From: Lachnospiraceae bacterium
GTDB taxonomy: Bacteria; Bacillota; Clostridia; Lachnospirales; Lachnospiraceae
DNA: 64,000 nt
Reading direction: 5' to 3'
Assembly: GCA_015057425.1 (NCBI GenBank)
Contig: SVEL01000006.1
Coordinates: 62,001-126,000 of the forward strand
The notes under the pieces are model-generated. The model made no database searches. It saw only the letters and a list, made by a program, of their open reading frames with translations, and was not told where the DNA came from. Both the position numbers and the translations under genes were made by a program. This document shows positions 59,575 to 64,000 of the stretch, piece by piece. Every line of letters begins with the position of its first letter. Positions within the stretch are counted from its first letter, which is position 1.

Positions 59575-59601
59575 CTATATATTTTTGAGGTGAATACAGA
59601 T

Positions 59602-60531
59602 ATGAAGATTGTTATTTTAGATGGAAAAACTATTTCTGACGGAAGAGTGGATTTGAGCGTGTTCGAGGAATTTGGTGAACTTGTCATATATCCGCTGACT
59701 TCTCCTGACGAAGTTGTGGAAAGAATAAAAGATGCAGATATTATTTTGCTTAACAAAGTAGAACTTAATGAAAGTAATTTAAAGTATGCGGAAAGTCTCA
59801 AGTTTATAGGACTTTTTGCCACAGGATATAATAACATAGACACAGTGTATTGTGCAAAAAGAGGAATTGTAGTTGCCAATGCCGGCAGTTATTCTACAGA
59901 AGCCGTTGCACAACATACATTTGCATTGATACTTAATCATTTTAACAGTATAAGCAGGTACGAAGGATACGTGGCTGAGGGCGGTTGGATAAGAAGTGAT
60001 ACGTTTTCCGCATTTTCTTATCCTATGTATGAATTGATGGGTAAGACTATAGGGATTATCGGTGCAGGGGCTATCGGAGGTGAAGTTGCGCGTATTGCAG
60101 AAGCATTCCGTATGAATGTTATCACTTACACCAGAAAGAATACAAAAGAAGACTTGGATAACCTTCTTGCCACATCGGACATTATAACGGTACATTGTCC
60201 TCTTAACGAACAGTCAAAAGAAATGTTTAATAAAAATACTTTTGCAAAATGTAAAGACGGAGCATTTTTTGTCAATACTTCAAGAGGTGGGGTAGTGGTA
60301 GAAGAAGATTTGGCAGAAGCATTAAATACAGGAAAGCTTTCCGGAGCAGCCATAGATGTCCTTACATCAGAGCCGATGAGAGCAGACTGTAAGCTATACG
60401 GAGCAAAAAATATTACATTTACGCCTCATGTTGCGTGGGCGCCTATTGAAACCAGAAAACGCCTCATAGGCATAGTAGCTGAAAACATAAGAAGCTTCCT
60501 GAACGGAAGTCCACAAAACAAGGTTAACTAA
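59602..60531 (+). CDS. D-2-hydroxyacid dehydrogenase
   Basis: LMGKTIGIIGAGAIGGEVARIAEAFRMNVITYTR, CKDGAFFVNTSRGGVVVEEDLAEAL, ITFTPHVAWAPIETR. Confidence 0.93.
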   Translation: MKIVILDGKTISDGRVDLSVFEEFGELVIYPLTSPDEVVERIKDADIILLNKVELNESNLKYAESLKFIGLFATGYNNIDTVYCAKRGIVVANAGSYSTEAVAQHTFALILNHFNSISRYEGYVAEGGWIRSDTFSAFSYPMYELMGKTIGIIGAGAIGGEVARIAEAFRMNVITYTRKNTKEDLDNLLATSDIITVHCPLNEQSKEMFNKNTFAKCKDGAFFVNTSRGGVVVEEDLAEALNTGKLSGAAIDVLTSEPMRADCKLYGAKNITFTPHVAWAPIETRKRLIGIVAENIRSFLNGSPQNKVN

Positions 60532-60661
60532 AGTATGCCCCCTGTCAGAAGAAGTCATCTGTATAGTGAAGAATATCAATCCACCACAATTGACATTGAT
60601 AAATTATTTGTGATATACTAACTTTTATATCATAGGTGCATTGTGCCCTGATGGAGGTCAT

Positions 60662-61873
60662 ATGAAATTTACAGAGAGAGATTTTGTGCCGGTTCTTTTT
60701 GGCGGAGATATTAACAGTTACAGTGTTGCACGTGCATTTTACGAGCAGTATGGCGTGAAAAGTTATGTGTTTGGAAAGTACGCCAATGGACCGAGCTATA
60801 AAAGTAAGATTATAGAGTATACCAACGATGTCAATGTAGAAAAGGATGAGACATTTATAGGGTATGTCAACAAAATGGCTGATAAGTTTGCAGACAAGAA
60901 GATAGTACTTGTTGGCTGCGGTGACAGTTATGTTGCGCTTGCAAGCAGAAATAAAGATAAGTTTAGGGAAAATGTCATTGCTCCATATATTCCGTACGCC
61001 CTTATGGAAGAACTTCAGTTAAAGGAAAGATTCTATAGTCTGGCATGGCAGAATGGCATAGATTATCCACATACATTTGTATATAAGCCGGAAATGGGAC
61101 ACGATTTTCAGATAGAATATGAGTATCCTGTTATATTGAAGCCATCCAATGGTGTGATGTACTGGGAACATGAGTTTCCTACCCAGAAAAAAGTATATAA
61201 GATTAAATCAAGAGAAGAGCTTGACAAGGTTATAGATGATATTTACGGTGCAGGATATACAGATTCATTGATTATTCAGGATACAATTCCGGGAAATGAT
61301 GAATATATGTATGTACTTACATCATATTCCGGTAAGGATGGCAAGGTTAAGATGATGTGTCTCGGACACGTACTTTTAGAAGAACATACTCCTCACGGAA
61401 TGGGAAATCACGCAGTTATTCTTACAGAAAAAAATGAAGAACTGATGATGAAGGTTAAAGGACTTTTAGAGGACCTTAACTACGTAGGATATTCAAACTT
61501 TGACATCAAGTATGATACAAGAGACGGAAAGTTTAAGTTTTTTGAAATAAATACACGTCAGGGCAGAAGTAATTATTATGTTACAGGCTCAGGATTTAAT
61601 GTTGCTAAGTACATTGTTGAAGATTACGTATATAACAAAGAGCTTGGCTTTGAAATGTCAAAGGATTCACACCTCTGGCTTGTAGTACCGAAAAAGGTAG
61701 CCTTTAAGTATGTTAAGAATCCGGAAAACTTAAAGGGACTTAAGGAAAATTATAAAAATAAGTCAGTAGTTAATCCTGTATTTATGAAGGGAGATATTAA
61801 CCCTGAAAGATGGCTTAGAATGATGAAAAATCACCTTAGCCACTACAAAAAGTTTGAGACTTATTACAAGTAA
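60662..61873 (+). CDS. ATP-grasp carboxylate-amine ligase, D-aspartate ligase-like
   Basis: FVPVLFGGDINSYSVARAFYEQYGVKSYVFGK, YPVILKPSNGVMYW, FKFFEINTRQGRSNYYVTGSGFN; resembles Asl-type D-aspartate ligases. Confidence 0.8.
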   Translation: MKFTERDFVPVLFGGDINSYSVARAFYEQYGVKSYVFGKYANGPSYKSKIIEYTNDVNVEKDETFIGYVNKMADKFADKKIVLVGCGDSYVALASRNKDKFRENVIAPYIPYALMEELQLKERFYSLAWQNGIDYPHTFVYKPEMGHDFQIEYEYPVILKPSNGVMYWEHEFPTQKKVYKIKSREELDKVIDDIYGAGYTDSLIIQDTIPGNDEYMYVLTSYSGKDGKVKMMCLGHVLLEEHTPHGMGNHAVILTEKNEELMMKVKGLLEDLNYVGYSNFDIKYDTRDGKFKFFEINTRQGRSNYYVTGSGFNVAKYIVEDYVYNKELGFEMSKDSHLWLVVPKKVAFKYVKNPENLKGLKENYKNKSVVNPVFMKGDINPERWLRMMKNHLSHYKKFETYYK

Positions 61874-61953
61874 GATTATAAGTAAAATCACCTTGAAATT
61901 AAGCCTGGTTAGAAATGTCAGGCGATTATGGTGATTCCGAAACGGAGTTTGTT

Positions 61954-64000
61954 ATGCAGAAAATTTACTCATTAAAAGAATATTACGATATATTAAAGGA
62001 CACAGGACTTGTAGTTGAATATAATCTTAAAGAAATGGGTGCGCAGGTAAGTTATGTGACATACGATTCAAAGAAGGTGTCGGAAAATACACTTTTCATT
62101 TGTAAAGGCGTAGCATTTAAAGAGGATTACCTTATTGAAGCCGTTAGTAAGGGAGGTATCTGCTACGTATCAGAGAAAAAGTATGATAGTGTAGATACGT
62201 CGTACATTATCGTATCTGATATAAGAAAGGCAATGCCTTATCTTGCAGCCATGTTTAATAATTATGCGTGGAAAGAACTTAAGATGACAGGCATAACAGG
62301 TACAAAGGGTAAGTCAACCACAGCTTATTATGTAAAGGCTATAGTGGATGATTATCTTCTTGCAGCAGGTAAAAAGGAAAGTGCGATTATTTCATCCATA
62401 GATGTATATGACGGTGTTGAAAATAAAGAATCACATATTACTACACCGGAGGCAGTTGAGTTACAGGAGCACTTTAGAAATGCAGTTAACACAGGTATAG
62501 AGTATCTGGAAATGGAAGCATCAAGCCAGGCACTTAAATATAACAGACTTGATGAGACAAGATTTGATGTAGGAGTATTTTTAAATATTTCAGAAGACCA
62601 TATCAGTCCTATAGAACATCCTGATTTTGAGGATTACTTTGCAGCAAAGTTAAGGATTTTCGGATATTGTGACGTTGCATGTGTAAATATGGACAGCGAC
62701 TTTGCAGACAGAGTTTTAAAGTCGGCAGAGGCAGCAGGAAGTATAGTGACATTTGGAACGAAAGCAGGTTCGGATATATACGGATATGATATACGTAAGG
62801 AAGACGGAGAAATAGTATTTAACGTTAAATGCGACAGGTTTGACGAAGAATTCAGACTTGGAATGCCGGGGCTTTTCAATGTGGAAAATGCTTTGGCAGC
62901 AATTGCAGTAGCATATGTATATGAAATTCCATTGCCATATATTATGTCGGGACTTTTAAGAGCCCGTTCAAGCGGACGAATGGAACTTTACACAAGCAGA
63001 GATAAGAAAATAGTTGCAGTAGTTGATTATGCTCATAATAAGTTAAGCTTTGAGAAACTTTTTGAAACTACATTAAAAGAATATCCGGGTTACAGGATAG
63101 TTACCATATTTGGATGTCCGGGCAAGAAAGCATTGCTTAGAAGACGGGATTTGGGAACAGTTGCAGCAATGTATTCAGACAAGATTTTTCTTGTGGCAGA
63201 AGACCCTGGAGAAGAACCGGTTATAGATATATCAAGAGATATTGCACAGTATGTAGAGGCGGGAAACTGTCCATATGAAATGATAGAAGACAGAGGCGAG
63301 GCTATAGGCAAAGCCATAAGGGAAGCAGAAGATGCGACAGTTTTTCTCATTACCGGTAAAGGCAATGAAACCAGACAAAAGTATGGAAGAGAATATTTAG
63401 ATTGTCCGTCTGACGTAGATTATGTGAAGCAGTTTTTAAAGGAATATGATGATAAAAATTGCGGTTCACTGGGTGTTATAGGCGGCGTTGGTCCGGCAGC
63501 ATCTTCATTTTTCTATCAGCGTATAATTAACAGAACAGATGCACACAAAGATCAGGAACATATCGATATTGTTCTCCTTAGTCATGCCACAATTCCTGAC
63601 AGAACAGCAGCGATAGTTGCAGGAGACACAAAAGAAGTTGTTGATGTATTTGTAAATGATGTAAAGAAGCTTGAAGCCTTAGGCGTAAAAAATATTGCCA
63701 TACCGTGTAATACTTCATACGCATTTTATGAACAGATGCAGGCAGCAACCAATGTAAATATCATAAATATGGTTGCCGAAAGTGTTAAATACGCCGTAGA
63801 TAATATGAATGTTAAAAACATTGGTGTTATGGCAACAGACGGCACCATTTTATCTGAAGTATATAAGAAAGAATGCGAAAAGTTGGGTGTGGGATATGTA
63901 ATACCATCACCTGACAGACAGAAAGATGTAATGCACATCATATATGAAGAAGTAAAAAAAGGAAGACGGGGTTCAAAGAAACTGTTTGACGGAGTTGTAG
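61954..64000 (+). CDS. MurE-like Mur ligase fused to a C-terminal Asp/Glu racemase domain (3' end outside window; absent from ORF track)
   Basis: Mur ligase ITGTKGKSTTAYYVKAI, DYAHNKLSFEKLF, FLITGKGNETRQKYGREY; racemase GVIGGVGPAASSFFYQRIINRTDAHKDQEHIDIVLLSHATIPDRTAAI, IAIPCNTSYAF; open frame to window end. Confidence 0.9.
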   Translation, partial: MQKIYSLKEYYDILKDTGLVVEYNLKEMGAQVSYVTYDSKKVSENTLFICKGVAFKEDYLIEAVSKGGICYVSEKKYDSVDTSYIIVSDIRKAMPYLAAMFNNYAWKELKMTGITGTKGKSTTAYYVKAIVDDYLLAAGKKESAIISSIDVYDGVENKESHITTPEAVELQEHFRNAVNTGIEYLEMEASSQALKYNRLDETRFDVGVFLNISEDHISPIEHPDFEDYFAAKLRIFGYCDVACVNMDSDFADRVLKSAEAAGSIVTFGTKAGSDIYGYDIRKEDGEIVFNVKCDRFDEEFRLGMPGLFNVENALAAIAVAYVYEIPLPYIMSGLLRARSSGRMELYTSRDKKIVAVVDYAHNKLSFEKLFETTLKEYPGYRIVTIFGCPGKKALLRRRDLGTVAAMYSDKIFLVAEDPGEEPVIDISRDIAQYVEAGNCPYEMIEDRGEAIGKAIREAEDATVFLITGKGNETRQKYGREYLDCPSDVDYVKQFLKEYDDKNCGSLGVIGGVGPAASSFFYQRIINRTDAHKDQEHIDIVLLSHATIPDRTAAIVAGDTKEVVDVFVNDVKKLEALGVKNIAIPCNTSYAFYEQMQAATNVNIINMVAESVKYAVDNMNVKNIGVMATDGTILSEVYKKECEKLGVGYVIPSPDRQKDVMHIIYEEVKKGRRGSKKLFDGVV

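Follow-up and report, generated by a model that had tools for sequence, protein, structure and literature searches.

A putative D-aspartate cross-bridge locus with a MurE-aspartate racemase fusion frame in a Lachnospiraceae bacterium

Abstract

A locus at the right end of the 64,000-nucleotide stretch analysed here (the window; Lachnospiraceae bacterium assembly GCA_015057425.1, contig SVEL01000006.1, positions 62,001 to 126,000 of the forward strand) very probably makes the precursor of a type A4 peptidoglycan, in which the cross-bridge is L-Lys (or L-Orn)-D-Asp. Most relatives of this Lachnospiraceae-like bacterium have a DAP wall, and the locus is predicted to build one with lysine (or ornithine) and D-aspartate instead. 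Its ligase, MurE and racemase form a module that is conserved across Clostridia, usually as unfused genes, and the joining of the lysine-adding and D-aspartate-making enzymes in one frame is seen only in this genome. The D-Asp cross-bridge reading draws on the clade of the MurE, its EDPG and GKGN motifs, the homology and gene neighbours of the ligase, the conservation of the module, and 14 genomes in which its MurE is the only one found.

Results

The locus has an operon-like order, with the following features.

60590..60619, + strand: sigma-70-like promoter 5' of the ligase ATG, TTGACA-18-TATACT, its -10 preceded by TG (11/12 positions)
60662..61873, + strand: ATP-grasp carboxylate-amine ligase, predicted D-aspartate ligase of AslA/Aslfm type (fold, homology)
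61915..64000 and 158 bases past the window, + strand: MurE-aspartate racemase fusion ORF, 747 aa, likely start ATG 61954
62044..63402, + strand: MurE region with N-terminal UDP-MurNAc domain, Mur_ligase_M and Mur_ligase_C (TIGR01085 positions 3-460)
62299..62322, + strand: Mur ligase P-loop GTKGKSTT (sequence)
63199..63210, + strand: EDPG, where DAP-type MurE has DNPR and Lys-type has DDPG/DDPA/DDPN (alignment)
63355..63366, + strand: GKGN, where DAP-type MurE has GKGH(E) (alignment)
63436..63468, + strand: fusion junction, AAAGGAATATGATGATAAAAATTGCGG, with SD-like AAAGGA and ATGATG in the +1 frame and an A5 run at 63454-63458
63469..64000, + strand: aspartate racemase domain, complete on the contig, its last 53 codons including the stop lying beyond the window
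63706..63708, + strand: codon of the first catalytic Cys of the racemase (in PCNTS); that of the second (in ACTE) is 42 bases past the right edge of the window

The ATP-grasp ORF encodes 403 aa from ATG 60662 or 410 aa from TTG 60641. A Pfam search with it gave zero matches, and its AlphaFold model (mean pLDDT 89.7) has an ATP-grasp fold whose nearest PDB structures are ATP-grasp ligases, the best being the L-amino-acid ligase BL00235 and PylC. The enzyme was placed through homologues from Latilactobacillus curvatus, L. crispatus and L. fermentum, which stand in for the characterised Aslfm and AslA sequences. It is 36% identical over the full length to the L. curvatus ligase, whose gene has an aspartate racemase gene directly 5' of it, and the L. 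crispatus homologue has asnB in the same position (named records). About half of 199 Lactobacillales genomes have a full-length homologue, in most cases 33-43% identical (100 matches, some weak and partial), and a Lys-type MurE gene lies immediately 5' of the ligase gene in genomes G571, G608, G485, G502 and G630. Fold and full-length homology to a racemase-adjacent ligase agree with the earlier note's proposal of an Asl-type enzyme, and we predict a D-aspartate ligase of AslA/Aslfm type.

On the same strand, 39 bases after the end of the fusion frame, lies a gene for an asnB-like asparagine synthase of 618 aa (TIGR01536, 510 bits), which is 40% identical to the L. crispatus AsnB encoded beside the ligase, yet is also a plain TIGR01536 match; asnB is a common gene and adjoins the module in few relatives only. 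The window locus has homologues of all four genes: ligase, Lys-type MurE, racemase and asparagine synthase. Upstream, a D-2-hydroxyacid dehydrogenase gene (59590-60531, same strand) is separated from the ligase gene by the promoter-like site, which is only a consensus match of a kind no more frequent in the region than in shuffled sequence; the dehydrogenase gene is probably outside the locus.

The fusion frame is free of stops from 61915 to the window edge, and its true start is probably ATG 61954, because an SD sequence (CGGAG) is present there and relatives begin at this point. The MurE part passes TIGR01085 (296.7 bits, cut-off 257.3), and the racemase part passes TIGR00035 (156.5 bits, cut-off 93.1) although it is clipped by the window edge. 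With the fold model and the ORFs, these matches uphold the earlier note's description of an ATP-grasp ORF followed by one frame with complete Mur-ligase and racemase modules, and reading past the right edge completes both the frame and the racemase. Both catalytic cysteines of aspartate racemases are present, in keeping with the proposed D-Asp source, and the Pyrococcus enzyme (PDB 1jfl) is matched over its full length; the window racemase differs from it in being fused behind a MurE, with its own start codon out of frame. In a family alignment of the fusion with separate racemases, the racemase rows are 13-18% identical to the fusion and possibly misplaced, for which reason the alignment was set aside.

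The MurE half had been called divergent by the earlier note, with doubtful DAP specificity. The sequence AEDPGEEP does align without gaps to the DNPR region, replacing D-N-P-R by E-D-P-G, and the DAP signature is lost at both sites (EDPG, GKGN), but the protein is not merely divergent. In a tree of 90 MurE proteins, the window MurE, its Clostridia relatives, the Collinsella aerofaciens MurE and the Lactobacillales MurE (Enterococcus faecalis L-Lys ligase, L. curvatus) fall on one side and all DNPR MurE on the other (SH-aLRT 100). The window MurE shares with the E. faecalis UDP-MurNAc-L-Ala-D-Glu:L-Lys ligase (EC 6.3.2.7) its side of the tree, a [DE]DPx motif (DDPG, DDPA or DDPN in Lactobacillales) and a GKGx other than GKGHE; it differs in forming a separate subclade and in its C-terminal racemase. 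The fusion scores 326.3 bits against the L-lysine MurE equivalog NF010628 (PRK14022), short of the cut-off of 536, and is therefore placed in the wider clade only, not in that equivalog. Thermotoga maritima MurE adds Lys and has DDPR, yet groups with the DNPR proteins, which makes motif and tree indicative and not conclusive. We place the window MurE in the Lys-type clade and infer Lys or Orn as its substrate.

The comparison covered 80 named loci with a close ligase from the genome collection, and 30 family loci. In most of these the ligase adjoins MurE, usually with a racemase; most of the 80 have ligase, racemase and MurE, in that order, as separate neighbouring genes, and in others the pair ligase-MurE is accompanied by a nearby racemase or by none that was seen. 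The hosts are mostly Clostridia, also Coriobacteriia. A close ligase (at least 50% identical) is present in 23 of 397 family genomes, all 23 of which have a Lys-type MurE (at least 42% identical to the window MurE), vs 21 of the 374 others (Fisher 1.7e-25, not corrected for descent). The ligase is absent from 17 of the 44 family genomes with this MurE, which therefore also works without D-Asp. A different cluster, in G029 (L041:497-3971) and G545 (L362:3300-10516), has a distant ATP-grasp protein, a divergent Mur ligase without DNPR or GKGHE and an aspartate racemase; the G545 cluster further includes a probable VanY-like carboxypeptidase and another MurE.

The Lys-type MurE is the only MurE found in 14 module genomes, among them Suipraeoptans intestinalis, Eubacterium uniforme, E. 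ruminantium, Collinsella aerofaciens and strain AC2029 (3.86-Mb contig), and is therefore probably the wall enzyme; one of the 14, G437, has its locus on a single contig of 3.86 Mb. In the window assembly, itself 90% complete, the fusion is the only full-length MurE, and a third MurE may lie in the missing part. As to the second canonical murE that the earlier note asked about, the genome has a DAP-type MurE of 438 aa (G000:C22:70885-72132; L006:4868-6184, minus strand), between dapF and folD/priA, which keeps the P-loop, DNSR and GKGHE and lacks the N-terminal UDP-MurNAc domain. Comparable proteins without the N-domain occur in Clostridium aminobutyricum (L218) and Anaerovorax odorimutans (L215), and Anaerovorax sp. 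has a broken DAP-type MurE (L329:3284-4745). The only MurF found in the window genome (L038:9511-11079, L039:3288-4277; G000:C23) adjoins a D-Ala-D-Ala ligase and has, where its N-domain should be, apparent membrane helices, and the sole MraY match in that genome scores 95 bits, below the cut-off of 192.

Discussion

In the proposed pathway, whose order of reactions we infer, the Mur half of the fusion would add L-Lys or L-Orn as third residue of UDP-MurNAc-L-Ala-D-Glu, the racemase half would convert L-Asp to D-Asp, the ATP-grasp enzyme would link the beta-carboxyl of D-Asp to the side-chain amine of the third residue, and the downstream asnB-like enzyme may amidate D-Asp to D-Asn. In Lactococcus lactis, aslA and racD share one operon, AsnH amidates D-Asp, and the ATP-grasp enzyme, which acts on the third residue, consumes D-Asp rather than MurE doing so (PMC4155827). 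The window locus resembles this system and Aslfm of Enterococcus faecium in encoding an ATP-grasp D-Asp ligase with an aspartate racemase and an asparagine synthase homologue nearby, the known systems having a Lys-type MurE in the same genomes; it differs in having MurE inside the module and fused to the racemase, in its mostly clostridial hosts, and in a ligase just 33-43% identical to most Lactobacillales homologues. Collinsella aerofaciens, a module-only species, is the subject of one reference cited for the Eubacterium wall types A1gamma/A4alpha/A4beta (PMC11382707), which favours the D-Asp cross-bridge reading. That reading agrees with the modified cross-bridge suggested by the earlier note. 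Counted against it are the missed NF010628 cut-off, the Lys-type MurE genomes that lack the ligase, and the commonness and rare adjacency of asnB. The literature yielded no wall analysis of the source organism or a close relative, and no direct open-access source for the wall chemistry of Lachnospiraceae or Collinsella.

Other roles for the enzymes fit these data less well. That the MurE half still adds meso-DAP, while the ATP-grasp enzyme puts D-Asp elsewhere, is very unlikely: the T. maritima case shows that motif, tree and substrate are imperfectly tied and that the motif is a proxy, but the MurE half lies on the Lactobacillales Lys-type side, both of its DAP-contact motifs are altered, and it co-occurs with a homologue of D-Asp ligases acting on the L-Lys side chain. 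Motif and tree together disfavour retained DAP specificity. The idea that MurE itself uses D-Asp from the fused racemase, which would put D-Asp in the stem peptide, has the physical fusion as its sole point in favour, and we regard it as extremely improbable, since relatives carry this MurE as a separate protein, it clusters with the Lys-type enzymes, and a homologue of D-Asp ligases is encoded directly beside the fused one. A specialised peptide or side-chain modification apart from the main wall, the first of which was raised in the earlier note, has two points in its favour: a DAP-type MurE is also kept in several module genomes, so that the module could be an extra, and other genomes have the different ATP-grasp/Mur-ligase/racemase cluster. 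We still hold such a role to be highly unlikely, as it is weakened by the genomes that have the module MurE alone although MurE is essential, and the UDP-MurNAc-binding N-domain of the module MurE is intact. The earlier note would have abandoned its reading had the fusion been the only MurE with normal Lys activity; the findings come close to that, and they fit a D-Asp wall rather than speaking against it.

The frame itself may have arisen by a recent one-base event or may reflect a one-base error. If the latter, the locus would hold two separate overlapping genes with MurE and racemase unchanged in function, and the artefact suspected in the earlier note would lie in the A5 run, where one added A yields a separate racemase beginning MMIKNCGSLGVIGG. 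The SD-like AAAGGA and the ATGATG, in the +1 frame, stand exactly at the expected racemase start, and no other MurE-racemase fusion was seen in about 110 module loci or in the 44 family genomes with this MurE. The assembly, however, has one open frame without a frame break; the MurE part ends like its relatives (..EYD) and the racemase core starts a few residues later with no loss of domain, as expected of a real gene fusion; and such fusions do occur, since a second Lys-type MurE, 54% identical to the window MurE, carries a C-terminal ArgB-like acetylglutamate kinase domain in G114 (L328:2001-4550, G114:C13), where it might hint at ornithine as third residue. We consider an error rather unlikely and the fusion probably physiological. 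The coupling of D-amino acid supply and ligation that had been read into it finds no support for the fusion as such, because the ATP-grasp enzyme, and not MurE, is what uses up D-Asp in the known system (PMC4155827). The racemase should feed the neighbouring ligase, not MurE, and the fusion is therefore more plausibly a case of co-production than of channelling. Whether or not the fusion is genuine, the biochemical interpretation of the locus is unaffected.

Of the 35 module genomes, the 19 with spoIVA all have a DAP-type MurE (15 apparently full-length; without the N-domain in G425, G429 and the window genome; broken in G424), and 14 of the 16 lacking spoIVA have none. Both genomes that break this pattern are metagenome bins; in one of them, G435, the second MurE has no DNPR motif. 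The association has a Fisher p of 5e-8 with shared descent ignored; the ligase tree gives only three well-supported independent contrasts, all in the expected direction and too few for significance. G005 and G271 have neither a Lys-type MurE nor spoIVA, yet retain an ordinary-type MurE. As the simplest reading we hypothesise that the module took the place of DAP in the vegetative wall, with DAP surviving for spores, as in Lysinibacillus (Bacillus) sphaericus, which has a Lys-D-Asp vegetative wall and a meso-DAP spore cortex. The two-wall idea is known from Bacillus relatives; the open-access literature gave no direct source for the L. sphaericus precedent. The likeness is that module-bearing spore-formers are predicted to use both MurE types, and the difference is that the DAP-type MurE of the window genome lacks its N-domain. 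It is a tentative suggestion, and somewhat doubtful, that this organism has two walls, the fused MurE-racemase making a Lys/Orn-D-Asp vegetative wall and the truncated DAP-type MurE beside dapF making a meso-DAP spore wall by acting on its substrate in a new way. Were it true, the retention of DAP-type MurE with spoIVA would mark a widespread switch in wall chemistry between growth and sporulation in Clostridia, and the link between this MurE and a sporulation gene makes the idea testable in gut anaerobes.

For Coprococcus and Roseburia, a recent review lists no wall type as determined (PMC11382707). From sequence, a patchy set of gut Clostridia, including Coprococcus comes, Eubacterium ramulus, E. 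uniforme, Sellimonas, Claveliimonas and others, is predicted to be able to make Lys/Orn-D-Asp peptidoglycan and not to be limited to the DAP wall that related bacteria have. The signal for NOD1 is DAP. If the prediction is true, it would change which host receptors sense these Clostridia and which endolysins are able to cut them.
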